DNA of 64,000 nt from the NCBI RefSeq assembly GCF_008630915.1, contig NZ_CP043909.1, positions 1,674,001-1,738,000 of the forward strand, in the 5' to 3' direction. This stretch comes from Acinetobacter suaedae (GTDB taxonomy: Bacteria > Pseudomonadota > Gammaproteobacteria > Pseudomonadales > Moraxellaceae). Both the position numbers and the translations under genes were made by a program. The notes below the pieces were generated by a model. That model had not been told where the DNA came from. It ran no database searches and saw only the letters and a program-made list of their open reading frames with translations. The first letter of the stretch is position 1. Each line of letters starts with the position of its first letter. Shown here one piece after another: positions 29,675 through 56,849 of this stretch.

Positions 29675-29699
29675 TTATGTTTACCTGAAATCTAGTTTA
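29667..29699. repeat. Internal end-region repeat, copy A (33 bp)
   Basis: Begins TATTTAACTTATGTT and matches 38634-38666 at 28 of 33 positions without gaps. It overlaps the inner edge of the element-end repeat, so the 38.6 kb copy may be a partial second left end. Confidence 0.55.
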
Positions 29700-29952
29700 T
29701 AAGTTATTTTTAAAATATGTTAATTAATTTCAATATCTTAAATAAAAATAATGGTAATTTATTAAAATCCAGTTCATGAACTTAGGCAAAATCACAAACA
29801 CTCAATAAATTTATATTCCAAAATCAAATAAAAGACTGTTCTGTATATTTAACACCCACTTGATAATGATTTCCATTTGTATGTATTGTTAAATATGTGA
29901 ATATTGTATAAATTTCGCATGTTTTTTTGTTAAATTTAGTTAAACAATAGCA
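29700..29952 (+). promoter_or_regulatory. cdiB upstream region
   Basis: 250 bp of very AT-rich DNA with no gene; expected to contain the promoter of the cdi operon. I see no convincing operator or ribosome-binding site; the cdiB ATG is preceded only by AACAATAGCA. Confidence 0.3.
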
Positions 29953-31698
29953 ATGTATAAAAAAGTAATCCTTGGGTGCTTGTTGAGCTATATTCCTATC
30001 CTTAGCTTTGCAGTAGAAGACGTTTCTCTCCCAGAAGTAATTCGACAAGATCAACGCTTAAATGAATTAAAGAAACAACTTCTTGAGCAAGATCCACAAA
30101 TCGCACCGCAACAGAAACAATCTATTCGTTATACGATACAAGATATTGTTGTAGAAGAAACTCCTTGCTTTCCGATTAAGCAGGTCACACTGTCAATAAA
30201 AAATAATCTTGACCAACAGTACCAAGTTGATGATTTCTCTTACTTAATAAAAACTCTAAACAATCATAAAAAGGGAATAATCGGTAGATGTATAGGTACT
30301 CAAAGTCTTCAAAATCTCGTTCGCTATTCCCAAAATGAATTGATGAAACGAGGGATGATTACTAGTCAAATTACAGCTTTACCTCAAGATTTGAATACTG
30401 GCCTTTTAGAATTACAACTAGAACTTGGTCGATTGCATAGAATTATTAGAGCAAATGAACAACCATCAAAATTAGAACTTAATAGCGCATTGCCTTTTAA
30501 AGAAAATGATGTCCTTAATTTACGACAATTAGATCAAGGTTTAGAAAATCTAAAACGTACCACAAACCGCACTTTAGATATTCAAATTATTCCAGCCTCA
30601 ACTGAAGGGCAAATAGAACTCAATGGCTATAGTGATTTACTGATAAAGGCAGAGTCATTGAAAAAGCTCAACTTTAATATTGGTGTAGATGACTCGGGTA
30701 GTGAGACTACTGGAAAATATATTGGAAATATTGGTGTTGGCCTAAATAGCCCATTTCATCTCAATGATGCTTTTAATCTGAATTTTAGTCATTCTTTGGA
30801 TGATTTTAAAAAGAATAGGAACCAAAACTATTTTATTAGTTATCAAGTTCCTATTCGTAATTATGAATTAAATGCCAGTTTTAACCAATCAGAATATGAC
30901 CAATATGTGGCAGGTTATAACTCACCAATTCTTTATAGTGGTAAAACGCAGCAGAGTAATTTGACGTTATCACATCTTTTAAGTCGTGGAAGCCATTATA
31001 AGACTAGTCTTTATGGAAAAGCCTATCATAAGCGTAGCCAGAACTTTATTGAAAATATTGAGGTCGAGGTACAACGTCGTCAAACCTCAGGATGGAATAT
31101 TGGATTACAACATCGTCAATATTTTGGCGTGGCCTCATTAGATTTTGGTCTGGATTACCGTCATGGTACAGGGGCTCTTAATGCAAAACCTGCAGCAGAA
31201 GAGCAAATTCGAGATATCAATGGCAACTTACGTCCTTCCGAAGGTTATGCACGGGCTCCACTTTGGAGTGCAGACCTCCGCTTAAATTATCCCTTCCAAA
31301 TTTTAGATTATCCAGTGCAATACCGTTTGAGCTGGAAAGGTCAATATGCGCCAAAAATCCTAGTTCCACAAGATCGTTTCTATATTGGTGGAAGGTATAG
31401 CGTAAGAGGATTTGATGGAGACATCATGCTTTCTGGTGATAACGGACATTATCTACAGCAAGAGATGAGCTTTAACTCCTCAATCTCCAATACACAGTTT
31501 TATTTCGGTATTGACCAAGGTTGGGTCAATGGTCGAAACAGCATTCCTGACAATAGACATCTACTTGGTACTGTCTTTGGATTAAGAAGTTATTACCAAG
31601 GTATTTATTTAGATGCTTTTGCAGGTCATGGGCTCATTGCGCCCAAAAATCTTGATAAGGATTGGGTAACGGGCTTTAGCCTGAGTTACTCATACTAA
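29953..31698 (+). CDS. cdiB: CdiB/TpsB outer-membrane transporter (two-partner secretion)
   Basis: Exports the large exoprotein encoded next to it. The 581 residues comprise a signal peptide (MYKKVILGCLLSYIPILSFA), an N-terminal helix and two POTRA domains (about 70-230), and a 16-stranded barrel with the conserved loop-6 motif VRGF (RYSVRGFDGD, about residue 480). The C-terminus is aromatic (SLSYSY). This is the FhaC/ShlB/CdiB family. Acinetobacter CDI loci have the order cdiB-cdiA-cdiI seen here. Confidence 0.92.
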   Translation: MYKKVILGCLLSYIPILSFAVEDVSLPEVIRQDQRLNELKKQLLEQDPQIAPQQKQSIRYTIQDIVVEETPCFPIKQVTLSIKNNLDQQYQVDDFSYLIKTLNNHKKGIIGRCIGTQSLQNLVRYSQNELMKRGMITSQITALPQDLNTGLLELQLELGRLHRIIRANEQPSKLELNSALPFKENDVLNLRQLDQGLENLKRTTNRTLDIQIIPASTEGQIELNGYSDLLIKAESLKKLNFNIGVDDSGSETTGKYIGNIGVGLNSPFHLNDAFNLNFSHSLDDFKKNRNQNYFISYQVPIRNYELNASFNQSEYDQYVAGYNSPILYSGKTQQSNLTLSHLLSRGSHYKTSLYGKAYHKRSQNFIENIEVEVQRRQTSGWNIGLQHRQYFGVASLDFGLDYRHGTGALNAKPAAEEQIRDINGNLRPSEGYARAPLWSADLRLNYPFQILDYPVQYRLSWKGQYAPKILVPQDRFYIGGRYSVRGFDGDIMLSGDNGHYLQQEMSFNSSISNTQFYFGIDQGWVNGRNSIPDNRHLLGTVFGLRSYYQGIYLDAFAGHGLIAPKNLDKDWVTGFSLSYSY

Positions 31699-31754
31699 GT
31701 TATTAGATTTACTGATTTATTTAAACTCTCACTTTAGAATATAGCTGAACCCAA

Positions 31755-34700
31755 ATGAACAAAAATCGTTACCGTATTATCTATAACAAAGCTCGTCAAA
31801 TGTTTATGGCTGTAGCTGAAAATGCAAAAAGCCAAACAAAAAATTCAGGTCAATCGACCAGGACTATTGCTGAAACAACAGATCAAGCATTTCATCAACT
31901 TTGGCATGTAAAAGCTTTAGTGGTGAGTATGAGCCTGTGGATGCCACTTTCAACGGTCTATGCAGGAATGGTTGCTGATCCAGGAGCGAATGCTGCGAAC
32001 CGTCCTGTAATTGGGGTTGGACAAAATACGCAAAAACAGAATGTACCTGTGATTAATATCCAAACACCAAATGCTAGTGGTGTATCACATAATATTTATA
32101 AAGAGTTCGATGTTCCAACACAAGGAGCCGTGCTCAACAATAGCCGTGCTGGGGCTGCTTCAAGCATTGTCGGTAGTGTGGGGGCCAATCCATATCTTCA
32201 AAAAGGTGAAGCGCGTGTCATTCTTAACGAGGTGAACTCTGCAATCGCTTCAAAATTCGAAGGAAATCTAGAAATCGCGGGTCAGCGAGCTGATCTTATC
32301 ATTGCAAACCCTGCTGGAATCAATATTAAAGGAGGCGGTTTTATCAATGCAAATAAAGCCATTCTTACTACCGGGAAGCCGCAATTTAATGTAGATGGGT
32401 CAATTAAAGAGTTCATCGTTGATCAAGGTAAAATCACGATTTCCGCAAATGCTGGTTCTAATCTTGGCTTAGGTGGTACAGCAAATAACAATGCAAACTA
32501 TGTTGATATTTATACCCGTGCAGTAGAACTTAATGCACAAGTCCATGCCAACAATGATATTCAAGTTATTACTGGTGCCAATTCCATTAGTGCTGACTTA
32601 ACGAAAGTTGAAGCTAAAACATCGACTGCCGCAGCACCAAGCATTGCAATTGATGTTAAAGCTTTAGGTGGTATGTACGCCAATAACATTTATTTGATGG
32701 GAACTGAAAAAGGTTTAGGTGTAAATAATGCAGGAACATTACAAGCTTTAAATAATCTTGTAGTGACTAGTGCTGGAAAAATTGAGCATAGCGGAACAAT
32801 CAGTTCAACCAGTAAAACTCAAAGCCTGGTGAATATCCGTACGACGAATACAGGTGCCGCAGGTGATATTAATTCTTCTGGTAGTATCAATGGTTATGGG
32901 ATTTTAAATATTGATGCTGGAAATGACATTAATGTTAATGCAAAAGGTATTACCCTGAATTATGAGGGTGTTGCGTCATCACCTTTAATACTGAGTGCAA
33001 AAGGAAGCTTTAATTTAGCCGCGGGCACAAAGGTTGCCAATTTAGGTGCTTTAGGCGATTTGTATATCGATGCTGAAAATATCACATTAGGCGCAGATAC
33101 GGAGCTTCGCAGTAACCGAGGTTCAGCGGTGATCCAAGCCAATAATAGCCTTGTCTCAAATAAAGCTGGTTTTGTTGCTGCAAAAGATTTAACGCTTAGT
33201 GGCAATGCGAATTTAAAACTTACAGATACCCGACTACATGCTTCCACGGGTGATATCTATTTACAATCGACCTCAAAAGATAAAGTTAGCAATGATATTA
33301 ATGTCCAAGGCGGTTCTGTTTACGCAGCTAAAGGATTAACCGTCTATTCGGATAAAGATGCGACCATAAATAATCTTAACTTTTTGAAGAAAGCGAATAG
33401 TACACAAGCACAAGTGAACAGTATTAATGCCTATGCAGGTAACAATCTGAACTTTAGTACGACGAACCAGGAATTTCCTTATACCAGTGGCAAGATCCAG
33501 TTAGGTGCTGGCAATCAGTTGACGCTAGAAGGTAAAGATCAAAACTCTAAATTGTCTGGCGGTGGTGGGCTCAAACTTTCAGGGAAAAATATTACGACCA
33601 AGAATATTTATATGACGGGCTCTGGGGCGAATGGTGTAGATATTATCAGTGATGGAGGAGATATCCTCTTAGATCAAGGAAGTCGAATTTGGGGCAATAC
33701 TGGGGATATTAATATTAATGCCTTAAATGGAAATATTACTGCGAATAGCCTCAAAGCAACAACGGGCGGCAAGATTGCGATACTTGCCAATAAGAATGTT
33801 GAGCTTAACTCTTTACAAAAAACTGCGACGCCTGTAGCTGGGAAAAACACTTTAACCACAGATAAAAGCGTAATTGGTGGTCAGAAAGGCGTTACCATCG
33901 GTTCAATTGGTGAGGGTAATGTTAAGATAAATGCCACTAACTTAACTGCTCAACAAGGTGAGATTCAGCTTACCAGCCAAAATGGCCTTACGCTCGACAA
34001 GAATATAGATGTCATTCTAAAAAATGATACCTTAAGCAATGGCGTCATAAGCAGTGTTTTAAATGGACAGGCCATTTCAATAGATAATAATAAATCCAAT
34101 ATCCAGATTGCGGATACACAGTTAACCGCAACAACAGGCAAGCTTTTGGTTAGTAACAAAGTCGGCATGACCACAATAAAAGATAGTGTCTTGACTTCCA
34201 AAGGCAATACAGAGCTTCATGCAAAAGACTTACTTACTTTGCAAGGTGTAACAGCTATTTCAGATCAACACTTAGCCGTGAACTCTGGGCGTACTGTTTA
34301 CATTAATGCAGAGTACACGCCCGCAACCGTTTGGATTCCAAATAAAGTCACCAACTTAACTTCTAAAGGCGTGACATCTGTAACAGCGACAGGTAATCAA
34401 GTATTACAAAATGCCAATATCACAGGTGGTGCAGTGTTAATGGAGGCAGGTGGTTTTATTCTTGGTCAAACAGGAATGAATTATAACGCCACAGGCAGTG
34501 ACTTACTAAAAAATGATACAAAACTGAATAGCTTAGATGGTGACTTGAGTATCCAGACGGGGCGTGATCTTACGATTGATCCAACAAAACACAAATTAAC
34601 AGCCATGGGAGATATTGATTTAGTTTCTAAAAATGGGGCTTTAATTCTAAAAGGATACGGTGGTACTACTGGCAATGGTTCTGAAAAAGTTATCTCTTTA

Positions 34701-37700
34701 AATACAGCTAATGGGGGAGTTCATTTACAGGGGAATAAGGTTGAGCTACAAGGCTCACAATTAAATGCTAATAAAAATATCAAGATTATTTCTAATAATG
34801 GAGATTTAGTAATAGATGGTGTTAAAAACACTTTAAGTAATCATAATAGTAGCCAGGTTGTAAATCTTTTACGTCAAGAGAAAGAGAGAATAATTAAATT
34901 GCAGAAAGAAGTGGATTTCGCTGCATTAGAAAGAGATAAGAAAAAACTTATTACTTTACAAAATTACTATAATGATGATTTAGATAAGGCATGGGGGAAT
35001 CAAAAACTTTTAGAGGAGGATTATGCAGAAATATATAAAGAAATCCAAAATTTTTCAAAAAAATATAGAAATAGTATTACTGAAGATTGGGGGTGGGATC
35101 CTAACACTGATACGAGTTATCTAGTTCTGAAGTTTGAAACTCCTTATCAGAGTTTAATAAATGATCTAGATAATCAGATTGGTTTTTTTAATACATCCTT
35201 AAATGGTTATGAACACACAGGAAGTAAATTAAATTCTAATACTGGAGATATAGAGTTAATATCTCAAAAGGGTGTGTCTGTTAGTGGTGCAGAGATTAAT
35301 TCAAACTCAGGAAACATAAAAATAGAAGCGAGAGGAAGTTTAGATGAGAAATATACTTCAAGCACGCTAATTGGAGATTCCAAAGAGCCTAAAAGTATAT
35401 CAACTGCTATTATCATAGATGGACATACTAATTTTTATGATAAAGGGAATGAAAATGATAGTAACTATAGCATGAGAACTTTAATTAATCCTACTTTACT
35501 TAATGGAGAAAAAGGAGTAGATATTAAGGCTATAGGAAATTCAGAAAAAGATAATCTTATTCTCCAGGCCGTCAGTATTGTTTCAAATAATGGAAATGTA
35601 AATATTGAAGCAAATAAGAGCATAGTACTAGATGCTGCTGTTGAAACTAGTTACGATCGAACTTTAACAGTAGAAAGAAAAAAGTCTTGGGGTGGTCTAA
35701 AAAAGAAAACAATAACAACTGCTTGGGAAAGTGATGTTGCAAATGCTGCATCAGTAGAAATAGTAGCGAAAAACATAAATATAGAAAGTAAAGATAAAGA
35801 TGTAAATATTGATATATATTCAGGTAGATTAAAAGCTGACGGTGGAGTTATCAATATTAAATCTGGAGGAAATATTAATTTCTACACAGTGGATGAACGA
35901 AATGTAAGCAAGTTCGATACTACCAAAAATTCCTCATTTGCAGGAATAAAATATAATAAGTCTAAAACCAACTCAACGCGTTCACAATTTACAGAATTAC
36001 CAGCTAAATTACAGGCAGATTATATAGGAACAAAATCTGGTTTTGATACTCGTTTAGTTGGAACGGAATTTGAATATTTAAAAGGTGCCACCATCGAAGC
36101 TGGGGGGACTTTATCTCTACTAGTAGCAAAACAAACGATTTCTGAGTTGACCAAAAATGAGAGTAATTCAGTTGTTTGGCAATCGATGCAAGATAAAGGT
36201 TCAATTACTGAAACAGCACAACTACCAAGTTTTAAGGGCCCTTCGGCTCCTGTTTTTAAAGCAGCTGGTGGGCTAATTGTTCAAATTCCAGTGGGGGAAA
36301 AAGATCAAAATAAAGTTCAACTGAAAGATGAGATTTTAAAACTTGCTAATCAACCCGGTAATCAATACCTAAAAGACTTTTTAAATAGGAATGATGTCGA
36401 TTGGCAAAAAGTAATTCTTACCCAAAAAGATTGGGATTATAAGTCTCAAGGATTGACTGCGGCAGGCGCAGCAATTTTGGCGATTGTGATTGCTGCTGTA
36501 TCAGGTGGAGCAGGAATTGGAGCGTTATTAGGAACAAGTGGAACAATCACTAATGCTGCTTTACTAAGCTTAACTACTCAAGCTTCTATTAGCTTGGTAA
36601 ATAATGGTGGTGATATTACTCAGACCCTGAAAGATCTCGGAAGTAAAGAGTCAGTAAAAAGTTTAGCTGCAACAGTGGTCACTGCGGGCTTAATGAGTCA
36701 ATTAGGTACAACTTTAAATTTAAAACCCGATAGTGCACTACTTACAGATCGTTTAATTAATAACTTTACAAGTTCGGTCGGCTCAACATTAGTGCAAACA
36801 GCTATAAACGGTGGCAACTTAGAAGATAATTTGAAAGTTGCTTTATTATCTGGTTTAGCTGGAGCTTTACAGGGGGAAATGGCAAATAACATTAAAGGTT
36901 TAGAAGATGTCAATTATATTGCCCATAAATTGGCCCATGCATTAGCAGGTTGTATTGCTGGTGCAATACAAAAGCAATGTGAAGCAGGAGCGATTGGTGG
37001 GGCTGTGGGCGAAATTGTTGCTAGTTTAAGCCCTCCCTCCAATGGTTTGTTATATACAGAAGAAGAAAAACAAAAAATCCTATTAGTTGGGCAACTGACA
37101 TCAGGTGTTATTGCTGCTTATGCTGGATATGATGTAAGTGCTGCATCTAATTCTGCAAATATTGCACTCACAAACAACGCATTCAATGAAAAGAAAGTTA
37201 AGCAGTTACTAGAACAAGCAAAAGGATATATGGGGGAAAAAGGAGGAGAAGCATTAGATGCTGTTAGTAGAGGCATTGCCAAAGGTGATATAAAAGCTTT
37301 AAAAAATGCTCAAACTCAGATAGCAGAATATTTATTAAAAAAAGCAGATTCTGGTGGGTTATCGCAAGCTGAAATGGTTACATTTGGTACCTTATATGCA
37401 TTGAATGAAGCTTTATTTCCAACAAATATTCTAGATGTCATTCCTGGCGCAGGTAAGGCCGTTGGAAAAGGTAATGATCTATTAAAAGGAATTAGAGCTA
37501 CTGCACCAGTTTCAGCAGCCTCAGCTACTGCAAGATTAGGTTTACGAGAAGACTTAGCAAAATTGGCAAATATCCCTCGGAATATTGACAGTCAACCAGC
37601 AAATATATGGGGTAAAAGTCTTCAAGATATTAAATATTCATTTGAAATGGATGGTGCAGTACTTACGCTAGTACCTCCTAAATCAGGGACCTCAGGTTTA

Positions 37701-37949
37701 GCACAAGTCTATAAAGTTGAAAAGAGTGCAACAGGTATCAAAGAAATTGAATATCATCCTGGTGGTGGGCAACACTCCAAAAGCGGAGACATGTATTATA
37801 AAATGGTTATGAACGATGGAACACAAATTAGAATCATTGATCCTAATAGTTCTTTTAAACCAGGTACTATTGCGTCAAATCAGATTTATCTGAATCAAAA
37901 CGGGCAAAAATTGAAATATCAAAGTGGCAAATGGGAAATTTGGAAATGA
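31755..37949 (+). CDS. cdiA: CdiA-type filamentous haemagglutinin exoprotein with C-terminal toxin
   Basis: A 2064-residue surface protein. It starts with an extended signal peptide (MNKNRYRIIYNKARQMFMAV, cleavage after STVYA about residue 72), then the TPS secretion domain with IIANPAGINIKGGGF, then beta-helical haemagglutinin repeats. Residues about 1030-1155 are a charged, coiled-coil-like insertion. A glycine/alanine-rich hydrophobic stretch (about 1565-1600) and an NNAFNEK pretoxin-like motif (about 1807) precede a variable C-terminus. The last about 110 residues, with YHPGGGQHSKSGDMYYK, are the presumed toxin. I do not recognise its activity. From about 34.7 kb codon usage becomes noticeably more AT-rich. 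Confidence 0.88.
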   Translation: MNKNRYRIIYNKARQMFMAVAENAKSQTKNSGQSTRTIAETTDQAFHQLWHVKALVVSMSLWMPLSTVYAGMVADPGANAANRPVIGVGQNTQKQNVPVINIQTPNASGVSHNIYKEFDVPTQGAVLNNSRAGAASSIVGSVGANPYLQKGEARVILNEVNSAIASKFEGNLEIAGQRADLIIANPAGINIKGGGFINANKAILTTGKPQFNVDGSIKEFIVDQGKITISANAGSNLGLGGTANNNANYVDIYTRAVELNAQVHANNDIQVITGANSISADLTKVEAKTSTAAAPSIAIDVKALGGMYANNIYLMGTEKGLGVNNAGTLQALNNLVVTSAGKIEHSGTISSTSKTQSLVNIRTTNTGAAGDINSSGSINGYGILNIDAGNDINVNAKGITLNYEGVASSPLILSAKGSFNLAAGTKVANLGALGDLYIDAENITLGADTELRSNRGSAVIQANNSLVSNKAGFVAAKDLTLSGNANLKLTDTRLHASTGDIYLQSTSKDKVSNDINVQGGSVYAAKGLTVYSDKDATINNLNFLKKANSTQAQVNSINAYAGNNLNFSTTNQEFPYTSGKIQLGAGNQLTLEGKDQNSKLSGGGGLKLSGKNITTKNIYMTGSGANGVDIISDGGDILLDQGSRIWGNTGDININALNGNITANSLKATTGGKIAILANKNVELNSLQKTATPVAGKNTLTTDKSVIGGQKGVTIGSIGEGNVKINATNLTAQQGEIQLTSQNGLTLDKNIDVILKNDTLSNGVISSVLNGQAISIDNNKSNIQIADTQLTATTGKLLVSNKVGMTTIKDSVLTSKGNTELHAKDLLTLQGVTAISDQHLAVNSGRTVYINAEYTPATVWIPNKVTNLTSKGVTSVTATGNQVLQNANITGGAVLMEAGGFILGQTGMNYNATGSDLLKNDTKLNSLDGDLSIQTGRDLTIDPTKHKLTAMGDIDLVSKNGALILKGYGGTTGNGSEKVISLNTANGGVHLQGNKVELQGSQLNANKNIKIISNNGDLVIDGVKNTLSNHNSSQVVNLLRQEKERIIKLQKEVDFAALERDKKKLITLQNYYNDDLDKAWGNQKLLEEDYAEIYKEIQNFSKKYRNSITEDWGWDPNTDTSYLVLKFETPYQSLINDLDNQIGFFNTSLNGYEHTGSKLNSNTGDIELISQKGVSVSGAEINSNSGNIKIEARGSLDEKYTSSTLIGDSKEPKSISTAIIIDGHTNFYDKGNENDSNYSMRTLINPTLLNGEKGVDIKAIGNSEKDNLILQAVSIVSNNGNVNIEANKSIVLDAAVETSYDRTLTVERKKSWGGLKKKTITTAWESDVANAASVEIVAKNINIESKDKDVNIDIYSGRLKADGGVINIKSGGNINFYTVDERNVSKFDTTKNSSFAGIKYNKSKTNSTRSQFTELPAKLQADYIGTKSGFDTRLVGTEFEYLKGATIEAGGTLSLLVAKQTISELTKNESNSVVWQSMQDKGSITETAQLPSFKGPSAPVFKAAGGLIVQIPVGEKDQNKVQLKDEILKLANQPGNQYLKDFLNRNDVDWQKVILTQKDWDYKSQGLTAAGAAILAIVIAAVSGGAGIGALLGTSGTITNAALLSLTTQASISLVNNGGDITQTLKDLGSKESVKSLAATVVTAGLMSQLGTTLNLKPDSALLTDRLINNFTSSVGSTLVQTAINGGNLEDNLKVALLSGLAGALQGEMANNIKGLEDVNYIAHKLAHALAGCIAGAIQKQCEAGAIGGAVGEIVASLSPPSNGLLYTEEEKQKILLVGQLTSGVIAAYAGYDVSAASNSANIALTNNAFNEKKVKQLLEQAKGYMGEKGGEALDAVSRGIAKGDIKALKNAQTQIAEYLLKKADSGGLSQAEMVTFGTLYALNEALFPTNILDVIPGAGKAVGKGNDLLKGIRATAPVSAASATARLGLREDLAKLANIPRNIDSQPANIWGKSLQDIKYSFEMDGAVLTLVPPKSGTSGLAQVYKVEKSATGIKEIEYHPGGGQHSKSGDMYYKMVMNDGTQIRIIDPNSSFKPGTIASNQIYLNQNGQKLKYQSGKWEIWK

Positions 37950-38479
37950 AGAATTTAACCCCTGATCTATACGCGCCAATTATCCCAAATAAAGGTGCTG
38001 CTGGGCTTAGTTTAGGAATGCAATATGCTGATTTCCTGAAGCAAACTGGACATCTATTTATTGATGATTATCTTGAAGAATCTATATTTGATAATGTTTG
38101 GAGGGTTTATGAACAAAAAGAATTCAATGAAATCACCCAGATCCAGTATAACTTTAACTATTGTTATTGGAATAATTCAGTAGTGTTGGTATTTAATGGA
38201 AATAGTTCTGAGTTAGAATCTATCCAATTGTATTCTGGCTATAAAGGTGCACTTTTTGAAGAATTTCATATTGGTGATAAATTAAGTAAAATTCATGAGA
38301 AATTTAATTTTTACTTTTACGCTGATGTTCACTATCTCATAGATGATAACGTTTATATTGACAGTGATGAAGATCCTGCTCTAATTGAAGGAGTAGCATT
38401 GAAAACAGACTATTTAATAGAATACTCAAGTACTTACTCTGATCATGTAGTCGAGCAAATAAATGTTTTCAAGGCTTAA
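37946..38479 (+). CDS. cdiI: probable CDI immunity protein
   Basis: A 177-residue acidic cytoplasmic protein starting MKNLTPDLYAPIIPNKG. Its ATG overlaps the cdiA stop (ATGA), the standard arrangement for immunity genes, which must be made with the toxin. No known family is recognised, as expected for immunity proteins that co-evolve with variable toxins. An upstream in-frame start 15 bases earlier exists, but the coupled ATG is preferred. Function is inferred from position only. Confidence 0.75.
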   Translation: MKNLTPDLYAPIIPNKGAAGLSLGMQYADFLKQTGHLFIDDYLEESIFDNVWRVYEQKEFNEITQIQYNFNYCYWNNSVVLVFNGNSSELESIQLYSGYKGALFEEFHIGDKLSKIHEKFNFYFYADVHYLIDDNVYIDSDEDPALIEGVALKTDYLIEYSSTYSDHVVEQINVFKA

Positions 38480-38524: not shown

Positions 38525-38833
38525 CAATAAAAATTTCATTATTACTTATATGCCTAGATTTCTTAATCTTGACTAAAAGCAGGTTGAGCTTTAATATATA
38601 TCAGAAATAATGAATAAAGTGACAGGTGTTATTTATTTAACTTATGTTCACCTAAAATTCAGTTCACAGTATTAGTTTTTTAAATTTCAATGAATTAGAT
38701 AATAATTTTCACGGATTCTGTTAATTATATTCATGAATATAACTTACTACTTTAGTAAAGAAGCACATTTTGTATTCTATACGTAATCATAATTTTGTGA
38801 TAAAAATATAATAAAACAGCTACTTAAAAAATT
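38525..38833. other. AT-rich gap between cdiI and the helicase gene
   Basis: Contains the second copy of the 33 bp repeat (38634-38666) and the presumed promoter of the two-gene operon. No gene is visible. Confidence 0.4.
38634..38666. repeat. Internal end-region repeat, copy B (33 bp)
   Basis: Ungapped match (28 of 33) to 29667-29699. The outer 80 bp of the 29.6 kb element-end repeat is not present here, so this could be a truncated element end or a shared promoter segment. Confidence 0.55.
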
Positions 38834-41800
38834 ATGATTACAGAAATTAACCATTTGATAAGTGAAAAGCTTAGAGCATGTCAACGAATCAGCATAGATA
38901 CAATAAAACTTTATTTGCAATCAGACTCAAAGAAATCTTGTCTTATTAGTCTGCCGACAGGAGCTGGAAAAAGTGGTGTTATTTGTACAGTTGGCCATTT
39001 TAGTACTTTTGAAAAAATTTTAGTTGTAACTCATAGAAGAGCTGTATGTGATCAATTGTATAAGCAATTGAAAGGAAAATTTTTTGAAAAAATATTACTT
39101 GAACAAGAAAATCATAAGCAATTTCTCACTAAAAATATTTTCAACCAAATCAATGAAGTCGAAGATAATGGAATTTATTGCACCACCTTTCAAAAAATTA
39201 CAAGTTTAACTGAAGATGAGTTAGCAGCCCTAGAAACTACATTTAACCTCATATTAATTGATGAAGGGCATGCAGAACCATCCCCTAAATGGGGTACTGC
39301 AATCAGAGCATTAAAAGCAAAAAAAGTAATAATCACGGCAACACCATATCGAAATGACCTATTTAGCTTTGATATAGATGCTGAACATAGCTATATTTAC
39401 ACTTATAAACAGGCGATAGATGATCAAGTAATTGTTTCACCTACATTTGAGACTATTGCCATATCCCAATCCAATGAGAGTATTAATGAAGATACTGATT
39501 TTTCAGAAATTTATAATAAATTAAATACTATTAAAGAATTACAGCCCGATGCTGTGTGTATTATTAAATGTAAGGAATTTAGTGATATTGAAAAATATTT
39601 CCTAAAATTTAATCAATCTTTTAAGACGGTTGCAATTCACGAGCAATTCAAAGATAAAAATATTGAAGATACGTTTAGTTATGTACCAGCAGACCTAGCT
39701 GAACTAGGTTATGAAGTTCTAATTCACCAACGGAAATTGGATGAGGGGATTGATATACCTGAAGCTAAAGTTTTAATTTTGACTTATCCTGTTGGTAGCG
39801 GGAAGGAGCTTGTACAAACTGTTGGTAGAGTAGTAAGAATATATCAAAATTATCAGCCAACAGTTTTAGAAATATCCACTGAAAGTAATAATAATTTATG
39901 GAAAAATTATCTTGAATTTGATGATTATATTTCCAATGTAGAATCAGCAAAACGTTTTTTAAATACATTAGATACTGCTCTTTTGGTAGATAATTATCTC
40001 GAAGTTTTTCCTGAACATAGTTATTTTGATTCTTGTTATCGGAAAAAATTTAATTTTAACGATTTTGATCCTATTACCTCTTTAGAAATCCCTCTTGCAT
40101 CAGTTTGTTTTTATTATAAATTGAATGATTTTAGTTTGAATGATTGTATTGATAAACTTTACTGGGAGTTTAGCAGGGAAGGTGCTTTAACTAAGTATGA
40201 TATTGAATCAGGTGTTATTACATCTGTTTGTTTTAATAATTCTAAGTTTCTTAAGGATAGTTTGTTTTTTGAACCATCTTTAGAGATTATGATAATAAAA
40301 GAAATAGGAGACATTATTTCTATTTTTGATAGCAGAGGTAGAAAGTTCAACCATAGAGATGATCTAAAAATTGGTAGAACTATTGATTTAGAGAAATTAT
40401 TTAGTGTAATTGCTGGAACAGAAAAAACAAGAACAAAACAAGCTAATACAAGAGCACTTCAACTTAGCCAAAATCGGCCTGAAGGTATATTACTTAAAAG
40501 TTCTGATCTAGAAGCAATCAATCATTCTCAAGCAAATTCGGCATATGCAGTTACAACTGCAGTAGTATCAAATATTAATGAAAGCGATAAGGTTACCTCT
40601 TCTTATTATTTAGGTGTCGGGTCTGGACGAATATGTGATCAAAAAAAGAGTAAATTTACTTATGAAAGATTTATTGAGTGGCTGGATCAAATAAACATAG
40701 CTTTTATGAAAAACCAACCAACCAAAAGTCGTTTTCTAAACTCTTTTGCGCAAGCTATAGATGAAGCACCTGAAGAAGAACCTATATCTTGTATATTGGA
40801 TTTTTCAGAAATTATAGGCATCATAGAAGTGCACCATAATAATTGTATACAGCAAATTGATAATACTTTTATCTATAAAAAATATACAAAAGGAATTTCT
40901 TTTTTTAATTTTTATTTTATTTCTAATGATAAATATAATGTTTATTTACCTACTAATAATTTAAATAGTCTTATAACATTTACTTTTGATGAAAAAAAGG
41001 GGCTAATGGCACATAGTGTTGGTGATATAGCTTTCTTTATTGATGGTATTGAAATAAATATTAATGAAATTTTTAATAACAGAACTGTAAAACTATTATT
41101 TAAAGATGGAACAACTTTTTTATACGGCTCATTTTACAAACACAAACTTCCTGTCGAAAGAAGCCAACTAAATCATAATATCATAAACAATATAATTCCA
41201 TTAGATTGTTTGTTAGCTAAAGATATGACGGAAAAAGATGAGGATAATTTATCAATTAATTCCTTTGGAAATAAGTCAATTTTCTATTTAATAGATCAAA
41301 TGTCCAATGTTAGAAATCCACATGTTAGTCTAAATAGTTTAGGTCAATTTTTTCAATATCTACCGAATATAGATCTAATGTTATGTACAGATATGGGGAC
41401 TGAACCAGCAGATTTTATTTTATCTTCAAAAGATAAGGTTATCTTCGTTCATGTCAAATGTGGAGATAGTCCAATATCTCCACAATCTTCAGCTGGTGCT
41501 CTTTGTTTAGTTGGTGGTCAAGCTCTAAAAAATCTACACTTCTTATTAAATAGTAGCCCTTCAAGATACGGCAATATTACAAATATTCGTGGAGCATGGC
41601 CTGCACCAAGCGGTAATAAGCATAAAATTTGCCTTGATAGTCGTATCCGTTTGTTCAATAAAACATTTGATCTTACCCATTCCTTAGATGATGTAATCGA
41701 AACAATTGACAAGCGTAGACAAGATCCATTAGTACGTAAAGAAATCTGGTTAGTAATCGGCAATGCTTTTTCACACAAGCATTTTATGTCTCAACTTAAT

Positions 41801-41911
41801 AGTCCAAGTACAGCTAATTCTGAAACAGTTCAAGCATATCAGCTACTAGACACTTGGTTCAGCCAAACATCTAGTCATGATGTGGATATGAAAATATTTG
41901 TATCTAATTAA
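38834..41911 (+). CDS. SF2 helicase with C-terminal PD-(D/E)xK-like nuclease domain, candidate defence protein
   Basis: A 1025-residue protein. Helicase motifs in order: Q-like LRACQRISIDTI (13-24), Walker A LPTGAGKSG (40-48), DEGH box (143-146), TATP (168-171), LDEGIDIPEAKVL, and QTVGRVVRIY (about 330) with the arginine finger. After a 500-residue unassigned middle, about residues 853-877 contain NIDLMLCTDMGTEPADFIL and VIFVHVKCGD, an Asp...hydrophobic-Lys pattern as in PD-(D/E)xK nucleases. Very AT-rich. It is followed 19 bp later by an unknown gene and lies next to recombinases. It resembles type III/restriction-type helicases in outline but no named system could be matched. Confidence 0.8.
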   Translation: MITEINHLISEKLRACQRISIDTIKLYLQSDSKKSCLISLPTGAGKSGVICTVGHFSTFEKILVVTHRRAVCDQLYKQLKGKFFEKILLEQENHKQFLTKNIFNQINEVEDNGIYCTTFQKITSLTEDELAALETTFNLILIDEGHAEPSPKWGTAIRALKAKKVIITATPYRNDLFSFDIDAEHSYIYTYKQAIDDQVIVSPTFETIAISQSNESINEDTDFSEIYNKLNTIKELQPDAVCIIKCKEFSDIEKYFLKFNQSFKTVAIHEQFKDKNIEDTFSYVPADLAELGYEVLIHQRKLDEGIDIPEAKVLILTYPVGSGKELVQTVGRVVRIYQNYQPTVLEISTESNNNLWKNYLEFDDYISNVESAKRFLNTLDTALLVDNYLEVFPEHSYFDSCYRKKFNFNDFDPITSLEIPLASVCFYYKLNDFSLNDCIDKLYWEFSREGALTKYDIESGVITSVCFNNSKFLKDSLFFEPSLEIMIIKEIGDIISIFDSRGRKFNHRDDLKIGRTIDLEKLFSVIAGTEKTRTKQANTRALQLSQNRPEGILLKSSDLEAINHSQANSAYAVTTAVVSNINESDKVTSSYYLGVGSGRICDQKKSKFTYERFIEWLDQINIAFMKNQPTKSRFLNSFAQAIDEAPEEEPISCILDFSEIIGIIEVHHNNCIQQIDNTFIYKKYTKGISFFNFYFISNDKYNVYLPTNNLNSLITFTFDEKKGLMAHSVGDIAFFIDGIEININEIFNNRTVKLLFKDGTTFLYGSFYKHKLPVERSQLNHNIINNIIPLDCLLAKDMTEKDEDNLSINSFGNKSIFYLIDQMSNVRNPHVSLNSLGQFFQYLPNIDLMLCTDMGTEPADFILSSKDKVIFVHVKCGDSPISPQSSAGALCLVGGQALKNLHFLLNSSPSRYGNITNIRGAWPAPSGNKHKICLDSRIRLFNKTFDLTHSLDDVIETIDKRRQDPLVRKEIWLVIGNAFSHKHFMSQLNSPSTANSETVQAYQLLDTWFSQTSSHDVDMKIFVSN

Positions 41912-41930
41912 TTTATTAGAGATATTGTAT

Positions 41931-43622
41931 ATGCTTAATATATGTGAAATTGATAAATTTTTAATTAAAAGAGAAGTGGTTATACCTTTTAAAGCTAACT
42001 ATTTTTTTTATGAAAATAAAATTCTTTGCACAAACTCACTTATTGACATGTGTCTACAAATTAAGGATCTTACTAATACGGATGATTGCAACCAATCTTC
42101 TGAATTTTTATTTGCTAACACTATTTTAGCATTTGTAGATAAAGATTATAGTCTGCAACGTGAAAATTCAATTAGGTTGCTATTCAAAAAAGATGAATAT
42201 ATTCCTGTTTCTCTATTAAATGCAATTAATTGTTCCACTGTTTTTTTTGAAAAAAAAGACAATTCAGGTTTGATATTTGATCGGCTTGAAGGTGTTGAGT
42301 TAAATGAAGCTCACCCCTATTTTAAGTTTATTTATTATTTATTAGGTGTTGATTCCAATAAAAAAATAGAACCGTATATTAATGCTCTTAAAAAAATGTA
42401 TGATGGTAACATCATAGATCAAGAAATTTTGATATATTTTTATGAATATTTTCATGATATTATTAAATCAAAATTAAAAGTTTTGGAAGTATTTACACAA
42501 TTTGTTTTTAATAACATTCATAAAGATAAAGTAACTCAAACAATTTGGTTCTTTCTATCCTACTTTAATTTATCAAAAGATGATTCCAAAGCTATAGAGT
42601 ATGCTAATAATTTTATGGGATCGGCTAATTTAGCTCATACATATTCTTATAATAAAGCACTCTATACAAACACCTTGAGAGCTGCAATTAGAGTTTCAGC
42701 GTGGGATGATTTTTTTTATTTTAAATCTCAAGTTGATGGTAAATCAATAGGAAATAGTCAAGAGTTTTTGGAAATTTTTGAGGCTGGTGAGAAAAAATAC
42801 CTGAAGGAACGAGAGAGATTAGATCATCCTTTACATCCACAAAATATAAAAAAAATTAATCTAGAGAGTATAAATACAGATAATCTTATTTTCCTCGCAT
42901 GTGTTATATTGAATAGTGGAGAGGATTGGGGAGTCCTATTAAACGAAAATAGATTTAAGTATATTTTTCCATCTAAAGAAATTGTTTATCGGATTCTAAA
43001 AAAATTAATATTAACTCATTGCTTAAAAATATCTTTGAAGGATTTTAATAATATTGATGATGATGAATTGTATGATTTTAATAAATTAATAAATAATAAT
43101 AGGTTTCATTTGAATATTGATGGTATTATTGATAGTAAGGAAATTTCCTTATCTTTGATTAAAGAAGAGATAATAAATAGAAGTGACATTAAAGATTCCA
43201 TTTTGTCAGTATGGAAAATTATTAACATAGGATATTTTTATAGTACTTATGAGTTTTATTTAGATAAAATTACAGACAATTGGGTAGATGATTTTGAACT
43301 CAATCAGAATACTATTGAACGAATAGAAACGATACAGTCGACAGCAAAAAGATTTTCTTTTACCGCTTATAGTGCTGTGAGTGCAACTGTTTCATTTCAT
43401 GAACTACGGAGTACAGGGAATAAACACACACAAAATACTCTACTTTATAATATAAATAAGTATTTAGATTTTATAGAAAAAGGAGAGGCTGACTATTCTA
43501 AACCTCGCTTTCATAAGGCTCCAGTTTTAACCATTGAAATGTTATTTGATGAACTTTTTAATTTATCTCCAGAAACTATATACAATGAAAATATTTCAGT
43601 TGATCAATTATCTTTAGAGTGA
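41931..43622 (+). CDS. unknown protein, partner of the helicase-nuclease
   Basis: A 563-residue soluble protein, unrecognised. It is rich in Asn, Ile, Lys, Phe and Tyr, predicted mostly helical, and has no signal peptide, membrane segment or catalytic motif that I can name. The C-terminal third has RIETIQSTAKRFSFTAYSAV and SATVSFHELRSTGNK. ATG 41931 is chosen over a TTG at 41898 that would overlap the helicase gene. Its tight linkage to the helicase (19 bp) suggests one transcript and a common role; a subunit, adaptor or regulator is possible. Confidence 0.7.
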   Translation: MLNICEIDKFLIKREVVIPFKANYFFYENKILCTNSLIDMCLQIKDLTNTDDCNQSSEFLFANTILAFVDKDYSLQRENSIRLLFKKDEYIPVSLLNAINCSTVFFEKKDNSGLIFDRLEGVELNEAHPYFKFIYYLLGVDSNKKIEPYINALKKMYDGNIIDQEILIYFYEYFHDIIKSKLKVLEVFTQFVFNNIHKDKVTQTIWFFLSYFNLSKDDSKAIEYANNFMGSANLAHTYSYNKALYTNTLRAAIRVSAWDDFFYFKSQVDGKSIGNSQEFLEIFEAGEKKYLKERERLDHPLHPQNIKKINLESINTDNLIFLACVILNSGEDWGVLLNENRFKYIFPSKEIVYRILKKLILTHCLKISLKDFNNIDDDELYDFNKLINNNRFHLNIDGIIDSKEISLSLIKEEIINRSDIKDSILSVWKIINIGYFYSTYEFYLDKITDNWVDDFELNQNTIERIETIQSTAKRFSFTAYSAVSATVSFHELRSTGNKHTQNTLLYNINKYLDFIEKGEADYSKPRFHKAPVLTIEMLFDELFNLSPETIYNENISVDQLSLE

Positions 43623-43647
43623 AAGTTTATACAATATTTAAGTAATG

Positions 43648-44085
43648 CTATTCACGTGAAAGATACTTCTTAAGAAGATGGGGAGCCAAGAGGTGATCAA
43701 CTTTCAAATTGGTTCTAAGCTTTACCTCTTCAATAATATCTATAAGTGTCTCTGTATTCTGATGAAGCTGTGACTCCAAATCATCAACTTGTGTGCGTAG
43801 ATTTTTATTGGTATCTGTAAGAGCTTGTCTTGTCTTTTTATTCACATAGAGTTGCTGTTCCTTAGTCTTTAGATTTAGTGGAGAAATCTGCTCGGATACA
43901 TACAAAGATATAAGCTTCTTCCGCTCAGCAGAACTCAAAGTACTTAGCCCACCTGATATATAACCTTTAGCTGTTAGACGACTGTGAAGAGCCTTGTGTG
44001 AAATGGGCGATTTCTCAAACCCTTCAATCAACATCATTTGCAATTCTTGTTCAATGACTTCATCAAGTTGTTTACCGCGTAACAT
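43648..44085 (-). CDS. TnpC-like small coiled-coil protein
   Basis: A 145-residue hydrophilic protein; the C-terminal half (NKKTRQALTDTNKNLRTQVD then LESQLHQNTETLIDIIEEV) is a clear coiled coil. In Tn554-family elements a small protein of similar size and position (TnpC) follows the large recombinase and influences transposition. The start is 3 bp after the stop of the upstream recombinase, with AAGGA about ten bases before. Role is inferred from position and shape. Confidence 0.65.
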   Translation of the reverse strand: MLRGKQLDEVIEQELQMMLIEGFEKSPISHKALHSRLTAKGYISGGLSTLSSAERKKLISLYVSEQISPLNLKTKEQQLYVNKKTRQALTDTNKNLRTQVDDLESQLHQNTETLIDIIEEVKLRTNLKVDHLLAPHLLKKYLSRE

Positions 44086-44088
44086 ATA

Positions 44089-46413
44089 TTAGGCTTCCTT
44101 AGACTCAATTTTTTGTTGTTCTATGGCGAACAGTTCACTTAAGGTTGTTGGTAATTTAGTGATTGCATCTCCATAAGGAAAAACGGAAATAGGAGTTAAA
44201 CTATATTGCCTATCAAGTGCTTTTGTCTTTAAGTCACTTAAATAAAGTATTTTTTGACGTAAATCCTCAAGCATTTCTCTATATGATAAATCATGGGCTA
44301 TGATTTGCTCTATATGTGAAAACTTATCTAGCAATTCATTCAAAGTATATTGTAGTGCTTCTAATTCACCTTTACGGCCAGTTAAAGCAAAGTTTCCACA
44401 TTGATCACCTGATTGGCAAGCAATGCGTTTAGGGCAATCATGGACTGCTATTTCACGCATACAGCCGCCAAAAGGTAACGGGTGTAAATTTGCATGACGC
44501 TGCACTAACTCATCTGCATCTTTTTCATTATTCTTCGTTAATTCATTGAACGATTGAGTGATGTCTTCAAAGTATTCATCAAAGAATGATTTTTTAATGT
44601 AACTAGCAACTTCATTCTTTGAATCAAAAGATTGTAGGTTCATCTTTAGATTACTTTCTAAATCTAGTTGGGTTGAAAAATACATTAGTCCATCATTTTT
44701 TACAGAATCAATTGGATACTTCACAGGCTCTTGTTCTGTAGGGAATCCAGAAACAGCCAATTCATTCTTTTCAAGAATACTAGCAGCTACTCGATGTTGC
44801 TTTAAAGCTAAATGTTGGTAATGCTGATTTTGTTTAATATCAACACGACCCATGAGCATTGCTTGTAGGTGTTCAGCTAAGCCACTGAGAGCAAGGAAGG
44901 TGTTGATGTTATGCCGTGGTATGTGGCTAGTAAGCTTTGAATGCTCAGTCTCATTTTCTAGTAAATTGTACTTTTGGAAAGCAGAGACATTGTTGCTGCT
45001 TCCCAAAAAACTATTAATGATATTACCACTTAATGGAATGATATTGGTTTTGTTGTAAAAAGCTCGTTGAAGTGTTGCTGATCTATATTCATGGATGAAA
45101 AGTATATCTTCGTAAGGTATGTTCTCAGTTTTACCCTCATAACTAAAAACATGATTAAGAGGTTGATCTGAATCATAATTAGTGAAAGATCTTATAAAAT
45201 TGTCTAAATCATTTTTTAAATAATATTTTTTGACTTTTGATCCAATTGTTATTTCTTTATAGATAGGTACTTTACTGAGTGTCTTGATTACAACCTCACG
45301 ACGACCAGCATGTCCTCTGTAATTATCCTTAACTGCAAAGACTGTATCTATCAAATCATCAATCTCTATAAAATCTTCCGAAATTCTATCAATTGATTCA
45401 GGTAGAAAATCCTTACAGTCTTTTGATCGGAGATATAAGATGCGTTCTCTAAATTCTTTTGTAAGTTCTAGGACTGAGGCAAAAATTGTCTCAACTAGGT
45501 TCGCTGCTAACGGTTCTACCCAATGAGTACGAAAGCCTGCACCTTTGGCACCATGATATTGGATACCTAGTGTATATTGTTTAACACCATCAATACTAAG
45601 ATGCTCTTTGGTGGCAAGGTCTAAGATAGGTTGTTTGATTAGCGCATCTGTTTTTAGAAGTATGGCTTCGGTAGAACGGAGTCCTGTAATAATAAGTAAT
45701 AACAATAGATTGAGAACAATCTTTTCACCATTAGTTTGACATAAACTAATCAATGAAATGATATTAATGAACGTCCGAATAGAAATTAGTTTATCTGTAT
45801 TGAGTTCATCTTCATCCAGTTCAAGTTGGTCAATTAATGCTTTTGTACGTTTTGCATTTGGTGTTCTATTCTGCCTATTGATATATAGATATTTTTGAGA
45901 AAACTCTAAGTTTTTCTCAGTAAAACAATAATGATTCAAGAGTTCTTGTAATCTTAAGTATGTGCCTGCATGGTCAGGTAAGTTAGTTTTACTGGCGTTT
46001 TCCTTCAAAATTTCAAAAGACTGGTTCAGAGTAGAAGTGGATAGGGTACAAGGGTGGCAGGTATTGGGATTCTCATTATATAAAGAACTATACCAGCGTT
46101 TAAGAACTAGAATTTCTGCATATAATTTTTGTGGTGAGGCTTTTGAGTTTGATTTTCTATAACTCAGAACCATTACTGCTTTCATGAACTCTTGATATGT
46201 AGGATCTACAAAAAGGCTCTCAACTCCCTTTAACTTTTTGATTGAATTAAATAAAAAGTGGACTCTACCACTTCTAGAAAGCAACCAACCTGAGCCGATA
46301 GTTCCCCCATACCAAGCTGAGTCATCCCATCTTAATTTGAAAGTTGGTTGGATATTATTCTCAAAAAATTCTCACTGTTCATTTATAAATACATGGTATT
46401 GTTCAAGATTCAT
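44089..46413 (-). pseudogene. tyrosine recombinase C (TnpB-like), interrupted by an in-frame TGA
   Basis: Large tyrosine recombinase with a C-terminal Zn-like domain. An ATG at 46413 (MNLEQYHVFINEQ) runs in frame into TGA at codon 14 (46374-46372), after which the frame reads EFFENNIQPTFKLRWDDSAW and continues for 760 codons. The catalytic set looks complete: Arg in GLRSTEAIL, HxxR in SHIPRHNINTF, Tyr in QNQHYQHL. GGCMREIAVHDCPKRIACQ and GDQCGNF are the Cys-rich tail seen in Tn554 TnpB. Translation could only restart internally, for example at the TTG at 46284, losing about 43 residues. Probably inactivated, or recently mutated. Confidence 0.75.
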
Positions 46414-47993
46414 GGATACCATCCTTATGCATGTGGCAACGATTTATTACTGATTCTATTTCAAATTTTGTAGATTCATGGACTCTAATCAATGGATTTC
46501 TAGAAACACCTATACCATCAGACAGCCTAATCAGATCATTAATTTCACATTGAATACTTTCTAAAACATTGCTGTGATCAGCATCTATGAAAGGATGAAA
46601 ATATATACACCCATAGCAATTACGGACAGGTTGAAATAAGCATTTATCATTGTAAGAACAACCACCTATGTCATAATGAATCTTATGTCCAATATTGCCC
46701 TTTTTTCTGCTTCCATTCTTGTCTATAAATCAAACGTCCTGTGAGTAACATAGCTATCATCTGTTTATAAAGAGAGTTTCTACCTAAGGCTTGAGCCCTA
46801 ATTTGTGCTAATTGTGGTGTAGAGAAAATATAATGTCTTGCTGTCACGACTGATGAGTGACCCAAAATATATGCTATTTCTTCAGCGGAAGAACCCGCCA
46901 TAGCTAGGCTATAACCAACATGATGTCTAAAGTCTGAAAAGGAATATTTTTGTCTAATCATTTCTCCAGCTAAAACAGCATCTCGATATGATTCTGGTGA
47001 AAAAGCAAATAATTGAGTGTTAATAGCCGTTGAGCAGAAACGAGCTGCATTTTCCTCCATATCGAATAACTTTTCATCCGGATGCAAGTTAAACCTTTCG
47101 ATATATGAAAGAATAATTTCAGCGACTTCTTCTGGCAGTTTTACAGCTATTTTCTCATGTACATATCTTGCTTGCTTTGCATAGGGAATTAGTACGCTAT
47201 AGCGATGGAAATTATCGGTAGTACGTGTAGTGTCTACTTTTATATCTTCTACTGACAACTTAGCTAATTGAACAGGTCTAAGTCCTGATACATAGATTAG
47301 GCCTAATATTGAAGAGTTGATTAAAGTTTGATTAGTGACTTCTAAGGAATTTTGTTTTAATTGATGATTCAATTGGCTAAAACCTTGTTGAATCATGGTA
47401 ATAGTTGGGTAATCAATAGGGTCTTCATATTGTTGATAATACAGTTTTGAGTTGAAGGCTGTAGGACGTTCAAGAAATTCTAATTCGTATTCTTGATCAA
47501 CATCAAAATGTGAAAAATTTTCTAAAAATAATAATTTAACTAGAAATTTCAAGTGGTAATAGTAAGGTGACCTATCATCTTTTGCCAAATTACCCAATAT
47601 CGATTTTAAATTTTGATAATCAAGTTTTTGCTTATTGGCTTTTAATATTCCTATAGCATAACTAAAAGCCTGCAATTTAGCTTCAAGTGATGATGGTGTG
47701 TTGACCTGAATATAATTAGCAAGAAAAAATTTAGCTAGTTTTTTCTCAAATTTACTGAAATTAGAAAAACTTAGCTGAACCTTTTTTCCTGAATAATTAA
47801 AACTCCAAAGATCAGAAGAACTCTGAATAAATTTACTATCAAATTTATCAGCCCTTTGAAATTTAATGATTTCAGGAAGTTGTAATGATTCTATTACATT
47901 AAGGTCATTATCAAAAAAGACGATGAACTCATTAGGCTTTTTATCTATTTTTTCAAAATCTAGACTAAGTTGAGGCATATTTTTATCAATCAT
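46403..47993 (-). pseudogene. tyrosine recombinase B, frameshifted near its C-terminus
   Basis: The uninterrupted part (46683-47993, 436 residues) has Arg in GLRPVQLAKLS, an SDFRHHVGYSLA segment (Ser where most integrases have the His of HxxR), LGHSS and the Tyr nucleophile in ARHYIF. It stops at TAA 46685-46683. In the +1 frame the coding continues from GNIGHKIHYDIGGCSYNDKC through NCYGCIYFHPF to a stop at 46403, about 98 more residues with a Cys-rich Zn-like motif. Deleting one A from the A6 run at 46701-46706 restores one frame. The extension then overlaps the start of recombinase C by 11 bp, matching the other overlaps. Confidence 0.75.
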
Positions 47994-49335
47994 AATTTAT
48001 ACTGGAATCTATGATGCGAGCCAAGTTCATAAAATTAGCACGTTCTACAATAAAGCGTTTACCATAATATATAGGCATTGTACTTGTAGGTGACCAACCA
48101 CCTAAGGCTCTTAGATCATCCTGTGCTTTTAGCAGAGCATCATTTACACTTTGTTTGAGATCAGAGTGATTAACATTTTCTTTCTTATACTTCTCAAAAG
48201 AAAAGCTTAACATCATATAAGCCCAAGAATGTCTACATACGTGTGGAGTTAGACGTTCTATTGAGTCATAAGCTGAAGTATCAAAACATTCAGGTAGCAA
48301 TGTTTTTAATGACAAATCTACATGATCAAATATCTTTTTAACACTGGCATAACTTAAAGCAGAGTAGGGAGGCTTTAAGGAGGTAAATAAGATTTGTGAA
48401 GGAATTTCTTTTCGTATTTCATCTATATAAATTTGAAGAATTCTATAGTCACGTTCCTGTAGTTTAATTACTCTGTATGAGTATTCATTCTTGATTTTTG
48501 GCTTTTTTGATCGATCATCGAACTCATCATCTGTATTTGTAATAATTAAACTAAAATTATGATTCTGAATTGATTTTTTAATAGAATTGGTTGTTAGTAG
48601 CATAAGTTCACCAATTCTAAGACCATAATTAAGCATGAGATGTATGATCAGAAAGTTTCTGAGTTGTACGTTTTTTGACTTAAATGGGTTCAAGGTATTG
48701 TATTTATTAGAATTGCTCGGTGAGATAATTAAATACAATCCTTTAATCATCTCATCATTCATACTTTTGAACGAATAATTGATTTCACTTTTAATTGTTT
48801 TATTAGACTTTGAAAAGTTGTTTATAATTTTTTTCTTTATAGTCATATATTTATTTAAGTTTCCTTTAATTTTTTGGATTTCCTTCAGTGAAAGTTGTGG
48901 CTGAGATTGGATCGTTAGATATTCATCAATCAAAAAGCTGTAAAACTTTAAGAAGGATCTAAGTCTATGGCCAATTGTAGTGTAGTTAGCATGTTCTGCA
49001 TTTCTTAATCTTATAAGATTACTTTCAATTTTTTTGTTGTTTTCTAAATAGATAATGAAGTTATCAATTTCACTTTGAATAATTTCAAAGTTGTAGGATG
49101 ATGAATAGAAAGACTCACAAAAGGAAGTAGCAAACTTTTCAGACCAAAAATCGTACCAAAATTTTAATGCTATCAAATCAGCATGCTGCGTAGAGACACT
49201 TTGAAATCTGAGAAATTTCATGGTGTACAGCATAGGGTACAAACATGGACAAGTTGTATCCATATCAAATAACAGAATAATTTGGTTTTCGTTTGAGACT
49301 TTCTTTTCTAAATGAATTGGCTTTAGAGCAAACAT
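47986..49335 (-). CDS. tyrosine recombinase A (TnpA-like), apparently intact
   Basis: A 449-residue site-specific recombinase, the first gene of the recombinase operon. Catalytic residues are visible: Arg in LNYGLRIGELMLL, HxxR in TPHVCRHSWAYM, a Trp in GGWSPTSTM where the second His/Trp sits, and Tyr in IYYGKRF. Its last codons overlap the next recombinase start by 8 bp. Three large tyrosine recombinases plus a small coiled-coil protein resembles Tn554-family or recombinase-in-trio elements. There is no tRNA or attachment gene next to it. Confidence 0.85.
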   Translation of the reverse strand: MFALKPIHLEKKVSNENQIILLFDMDTTCPCLYPMLYTMKFLRFQSVSTQHADLIALKFWYDFWSEKFATSFCESFYSSSYNFEIIQSEIDNFIIYLENNKKIESNLIRLRNAEHANYTTIGHRLRSFLKFYSFLIDEYLTIQSQPQLSLKEIQKIKGNLNKYMTIKKKIINNFSKSNKTIKSEINYSFKSMNDEMIKGLYLIISPSNSNKYNTLNPFKSKNVQLRNFLIIHLMLNYGLRIGELMLLTTNSIKKSIQNHNFSLIITNTDDEFDDRSKKPKIKNEYSYRVIKLQERDYRILQIYIDEIRKEIPSQILFTSLKPPYSALSYASVKKIFDHVDLSLKTLLPECFDTSAYDSIERLTPHVCRHSWAYMMLSFSFEKYKKENVNHSDLKQSVNDALLKAQDDLRALGGWSPTSTMPIYYGKRFIVERANFMNLARIIDSSINYD

Positions 49336-49435
49336 AATAAAGTTTATGAAGTATTCTTAAGGTCAACATATCATATTCTTTAAGTAAAATAGAAATCACT
49401 TAAGTTATTGAATAGTGGTGAAGGAATGCGTCATG

Positions 49436-56788: not shown

Positions 56789-56849
56789 TATGCGTAATTC
56801 ATAACTATAAGAAATTGATATATCTATTAATTATAATTTCTAATATACA

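Follow-up and report, generated by a model that had tools for sequence, protein, structure and literature searches.

A putative single-protein helicase-nuclease on a GInt-type island of Acinetobacter suaedae: a candidate defence effector without a conserved partner gene

SauUSI, an ATP-dependent restriction endonuclease, holds a helicase and a nuclease of the PLD family in one chain, and in HsdR of type I restriction-modification (R-M) the nuclease part is N-terminal. Druantia III is described as including DruE, a YprA-like single-chain superfamily 2 (SF2) helicase with C-terminal PLD nuclease domains that works with DruH (PMC13192584). The mobile elements termed GInts are described as carrying three integrases and a small protein in one operon of fixed order (PMC5385486, Bardaji 2017) and, in E. 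coli, as defence-carrying elements (PMC10121019). Here we analyse a 64,000-nucleotide stretch of Acinetobacter suaedae (NZ_CP043909.1, positions 1,674,001 to 1,738,000; hereafter the window), in which an ATG-initiated open reading frame (ORF) on the plus strand (38834-41911) encodes a helicase of 1025 residues, followed on the same strand by a second gene, gene 2 (41931..43622); both lie on a mobile island (38630..49428). We consider it probable that the helicase is a self-sufficient, single-protein, ATP-dependent anti-phage (or anti-plasmid) helicase-nuclease effector and belongs to the cargo of a GInt-type island.

The SF2 motif set that a preliminary description had read from the letters (GAGKS, DEGH, TATP and GRVVR) is present and is fully or almost fully conserved across 41 aligned sequences, the sole exception being the Ser of GAGKS, which is Thr in some of them. 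Matches to Pfam ResIII (3e-17) and Helicase_C (5e-8) are both above the cut-off, and the protein divides into an SF2 motor (residues 1 to ~390), a middle region of ~400 residues without an assigned family, and a C-terminal nuclease-like domain (residues ~800-1025). The motor is akin to RadD and XPB in both sequence and fold, as would suit a RadD/XPB-type helicase with housekeeping duties in DNA repair or recombination. However, the helicase scores 33 bits against the NCBIfam RadD model (cut-off 720) and 22 bits against XPB (cut-off 610), and nothing in NCBIfam 20 comes near any cut-off. Its spread is also patchy: it is found at full length in five of 149 Acinetobacter genomes, where ten further matches are partial and fall in the motor region, and a close version occurs in 19 of 5426 E. 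coli genomes. Given this distribution, that the gene is mobile, and that its neighbours include defence genes, we believe a housekeeping role in repair to be highly improbable.

The C-terminal nuclease-like domain (41231..41908, plus strand) carries the pattern D853-x3-E857-x2-D860-F861 ... H873-x-K875 ... Q896-x2-K899, and an alignment of 58 sequences, a number that counts the window protein, shows no variation at D853, E857, D860, F861, H873, K875, Q896 or K899; the alignment extends to an archaeal bin. The site first proposed here, Asp...VHVKCGD, is therefore conserved, except that the final Gly-Asp of VHVKCGD is not invariant. The hallmark of a PD-(D/E)XK nuclease is a conserved D ... (D/E/H)xK set on a core of three strands flanked by helices; in the helicase the residues are invariant and the predicted secondary structure (helix-strand-strand-strand-helix) fits this core order, with no profile match. 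We infer that the C-terminus is a putative PD-(D/E)XK-like nuclease, which would be capable of cutting DNA.

Like the defence effector DruE, the window protein unites an SF2 helicase and a C-terminal nuclease-like part in a single chain. Unlike DruE, its motor is of the ResIII/RadD-like kind and its putative nuclease motif is D-E-D...HxK rather than PLD. Of the single-chain helicase-nuclease effectors described in the literature consulted, DruE offers the closest working model. Foldseek matches include the SauUSI structure (PDB 7clg; E 4e-10, only 383 columns covered), the putative nuclease of the helicase belonging to another family than the PLD nuclease of SauUSI. A ResIII-type motor is shared with HsdR (3h1t; NF046051), from which the helicase differs in that its nuclease-like part is C-terminal; as an HsdR it scores 37 bits against a cut-off of 550, and no hsdM or hsdS match was found among the seven window proteins scanned.

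Matches to PADLOC models are partial and weak (PbeA 9e-10, GajB 0.0015, HamB 0.04), a slight likeness within the helicase core to PbeABCD, Gabija and Hachiman, and none of these systems has a partner-gene match among the seven proteins. For Gabija, the GajB model (E 0.0015) covers residues 33-80 only and GajA is not matched; for Hachiman, the HamB match (E 0.038) spans 53 residues and HamA is not matched. The preliminary description could not match the pair to a named system, and the helicase indeed has no full-length match to one in PADLOC 2.0 (2023) or NCBIfam 20 (2026). The family was not found described in the literature searched, subscription journals and most preprints lying outside that search.

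Gene 2 begins 19 bp behind the helicase with an ATG and encodes 563 residues, mostly helical, with a TPR-like solenoid at residues ~126-294; an alternative TTG start at 41898 (574 residues) would overlap the 3' end of the helicase. It had been called unassignable, and indeed no match was found in PADLOC, Pfam, NCBIfam, PHROGs (E up to 0.1) or PDB sequences (E up to 1). The two genes had been put forward as one candidate defence system, to be judged by whether gene 2 adjoins other copies of the helicase. It does not: gene 2 is found at none of 39 other helicase loci (L032-L069 and L081, of which L034, L041 and L045 hold fewer than 700 bases downstream of the helicase) and at none of six E. coli helicase loci, and the two genes were seen side by side in just two genomes, that of the window and that of A. 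pittii ANC 4050, both of which have the same ~10.8-kb island. Two Acinetobacter genomes (G046 and G084) have the helicase without gene 2, and a third with the helicase, G110, is the genome of L033.

Six gene 2 proteins were found (from ~8,000 scored candidates out of 5.8 billion). Gene 2 occurs in two of 175 Acinetobacter genomes, both carrying the helicase island, in one of 369 genomes sampled across the class, which is that of the window, and in one of 394 Enterobacterales genomes. This last copy has Phd/Doc-, AbiE- and HicB-like neighbours, by-eye names of toxin-antitoxin or AbiE type, in an 8.7-kb contig that lacks the helicase, and a gene 2 remnant on A. soli pGFJ1 has no helicase within 16.4 kb; the four other gene 2 proteins could not be placed. 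Since none of the 39 other helicase loci has gene 2 and copies of gene 2 occur elsewhere without a helicase nearby, the two genes do not make up a conserved system. An obligate two-gene defence system, with gene 2 as a TPR-like sensor or regulator, would account for the close spacing on one strand and for the retention of both genes in the two island copies (protein identity 97% and 99%), but in view of the missing linkage we judge it quite unlikely. Rather, gene 2 is probably a separate passenger or an optional accessory, and its predicted TPR-like helical middle would suit a protein-binding accessory role. Beside the remnant on A. soli pGFJ1 lies another three-gene recombinase-like set (L006, 1661-7597; 152, 767 and 1057 residues), with no match to that of the window. 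One relative of gene 2 (P0125, 39% identity) belongs to a cluster of 1401 member sequences, for which one contig is listed.

For the neighbourhoods of the helicase, PADLOC (E 1e-25) was run on 225 ORFs of at least 150 residues that lie no more than 5.25 kb from the helicase at 32 loci and, as a control, on 246 ORFs of 32 stretches ~50-70 kb away on the same contigs. The scan left out the helicase genes themselves, ORFs below 150 residues, L031 (the same island), the distant loci L071-L080 and L082-L110, the fragment L070, and seven of the 39 loci that had no matched control (L037, L041, L045, L046, L050, L057 and L059). The models matched numbered 80 and 140 near the helicase, the best 25 of each being mapped, and 24 and 17 in the controls, whose lists are complete. 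With generic models left out (mad2, three near the helicase; mad2 and mad3, one and six in the controls; RtcR in a control), known or candidate defence genes lie within 5.25 kb at at least 14 of 32 helicase loci and at most four of 32 controls (Fisher p 0.004 to 0.011), in agreement with the defence role that had been suggested for this locus. These neighbours are type I R-M (L039, L042, L047 and L066), Lamassu LmuB (L038), Mokosh-like and ThsB (L052), PDC candidate models only (L053 and L060), a type IV enzyme (L061), a type II methyltransferase (L063), Olokun (L065), Shango (L067), DISARM DrmA (L068) and DRT2 (L069); the controls held a CRISPR I-F set, RmrA, RmrT and Tmn. The matches are to single genes and do not imply complete systems.

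A particular arrangement recurs in marine-type Gammaproteobacteria, where at L039, L041, L042, L047 and L066 the helicase lies 13-35 bp behind an hsdS-sized gene on the same strand. The type I assignment was made by member counts and gene sizes at L039, L047 and L066, additionally by a direct hsdR scan at L042, and by gene sizes alone at L041, which is outside the 32 loci. The five loci fall in three places within one ten-member clade (tree read by eye), a scatter that fits either an old association with losses or repeated capture. Such an arrangement is what would be expected if the helicase were a restriction accessory that degrades DNA once type I R-M has marked, stalled or cut it, and that partners unlinked host R-M elsewhere. 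However, type I R-M was mapped beside the helicase at only four of the 32 loci and has no match in the window's island, and we regard an accessory role as unlikely.

Apart from the helicase and gene 2, the island itself has just four genes, all on the minus strand and for recombination, and it is also present in A. pittii ANC 4050 (95.9% identity over 10.8 kb) between different flanks. The site-specific recombinases that had been said to adjoin the pair are real (43648-49335, minus strand). In their own direction they comprise a 449-residue tyrosine recombinase in GinA-like position (47986..49335; Phage_integrase 1e-7; 38% identity to its E. coli island counterpart), a 436-residue tyrosine recombinase in GinB-like position (46683..47993; Phage_integrase 3e-10; 35%), these two with Pfam matches above the cut-off, a 731-residue protein in GinC-like position with a weak tyrosine-recombinase match below the Pfam cut-off (44089..46284; 40%), and a small protein of 145 residues in GinD-like position (43648..44085; 59%).

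This order of integrase, integrase, integrase-like protein and small protein, all four of which pair with E. coli island genes, resembles that of GInt/Tn6571-type elements. As in a GInt, the cargo begins directly at the small-gene end, gene 2 ending at 43622 and the small gene at 43648, and the same island is found at different sites. In GinC the first Arg is described as missing by PMC5385486 and the catalytic Tyr by PMC10214605, whereas the 731-residue protein appears by eye to keep both (TGLRSTEA, QNQHYQHL). For this reason we call the island GInt-type by its gene layout, its membership being putative. The strand-biased circularizing elements are described with the order intA, tfp, intB, srap, the atypical gene being second (PMC10214605); the weak recombinase match is third in the island, and we rejected this assignment.

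The left end of the island (38630..38700) resembles that of the A. pittii copy and, by eye, window sequence from ~29674. As to the imperfect direct repeats that flank a GInt, inspection of the A. pittii copy by eye shows similar end sequences; at the right end the window diverges from that copy after 49428. Related sequences occur in the window at 29634-29714, 38630-38700 and 56727-56794, two of which resemble island left ends, as if several islands were stacked at one attachment site. On the last of these repeats starts a minus-strand gene (56270-56788) for a 172-residue protein with a WYL-domain match (Pfam E 2e-7), which may be a regulator gene cut through island insertion.

A helicase of 50% identity is found on E. 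coli and Klebsiella plasmids. Six E. coli loci were examined, from five of the 19 genomes and one plasmid record (L003), and with the window genes as tblastn queries all six have gin-gene homologues or remnants downstream of the helicase: all four gin-like genes at L189, L191 and L192; A, B and part of C at L188; C, D and a B truncated by the end of the stretch at L190; and only a piece of D on the plasmid. The complete E. coli genes are ~35-60% identical to those of the window. Neighbouring genes include Avs4 at two loci, retron Ec78 at one (the plasmid) and, at two, large AAA/TPR ATPases that we read as STAND-type; no named defence gene was found among the neighbours at one of the six. Extra GinC-like remnants near the helicase (13218-13652 in L190, L191 and L192; 23406-23753 in L188; 23408-23755 in L189) are a sign of repeated insertions.

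Several observations weigh against a self-sufficient defence effector carried by such islands. The nuclease-like domain has no Pfam or PDB profile match. If mad2 and mad3 are counted on both sides, the contrast in neighbourhoods shrinks to at most 17 helicase loci and at most 9-11 controls, each out of 32 (p 0.07-0.21); with the PDC-candidate loci L053 and L060 removed it is 12 against at most four (p 0.04); and up to 18 of the 32 loci have no mapped defence gene within 5.25 kb, among the models listed. Finally, gin-like genes lie within 10 kb at only one of 40 close genome loci (L031, the same island). Thus, the recombinase linkage proposed at the outset holds for the Acinetobacter and E. coli islands but is not general. 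The 39 loci without such recombinases also speak against the idea that the helicase serves the mobile island itself, by stabilising it or by excluding rival elements; that recombinases of one type have the helicase as cargo in both Acinetobacter and E. coli would be in keeping with this idea, which we nevertheless consider extremely unlikely.

Based on these observations, we propose how the helicase might act as a single-protein defence effector. The N-terminal SF2 motor would load onto incoming or replicating foreign DNA and translocate with ATP, the middle region would recognise DNA structure or modification, and the C-terminal PD-(D/E)XK-like domain would cut the foreign DNA. As no methyltransferase was found among the island proteins in PADLOC, Pfam and NCBIfam scans, self and foreign DNA are probably discriminated by DNA structure or modification and not by a cognate methyl mark. 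More tentatively, the helicase could represent an undescribed and very old single-protein helicase-nuclease immune family whose members span Proteobacteria, Chloroflexota, Bacteroidota, Actinomycetota and an archaeal bin and share a distinct nuclease variant (DxxxExxDF...HxK...QxxK). Such a family would travel on GInt-type islands with no fixed partner, and marine-type bacteria would have adopted it as an additional gene in their type I R-M operons; we hold all this to be quite possible, short of probable. If confirmed, it would be a compact, mobile, single-gene DNA-degrading defence protein, unnamed in PADLOC 2.0 and NCBIfam 20, that occurs on chromosomes of Acinetobacter and on plasmids of E. 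coli and Klebsiella, and an island without a methyltransferase partner would raise the question of how phage DNA is told from host DNA. The version that lies in type I R-M operons would offer a natural setting for cooperation of restriction with a downstream helicase-nuclease.

Some further features were observed around the helicase and its relatives. On A. johnsonii pAJ_082-3 (L002), a copy of the helicase is in four pieces with insertion-element transposase genes between them. Upstream of the island, the window holds a two-partner secretion or contact-dependent-inhibition-like locus (29953-38479, plus strand; 581, 2064 and 182 residues; named by eye), and in G084 a relative of its 182-residue protein (39% identity) follows the helicase at a distance of 2.2 kb. 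Similarly, DNA 80% identical to a HipA/HipB-like pair of the window (24975-26608, plus strand; named by eye) lies ~2.5 kb after the helicase in the Acinetobacter genome G046.
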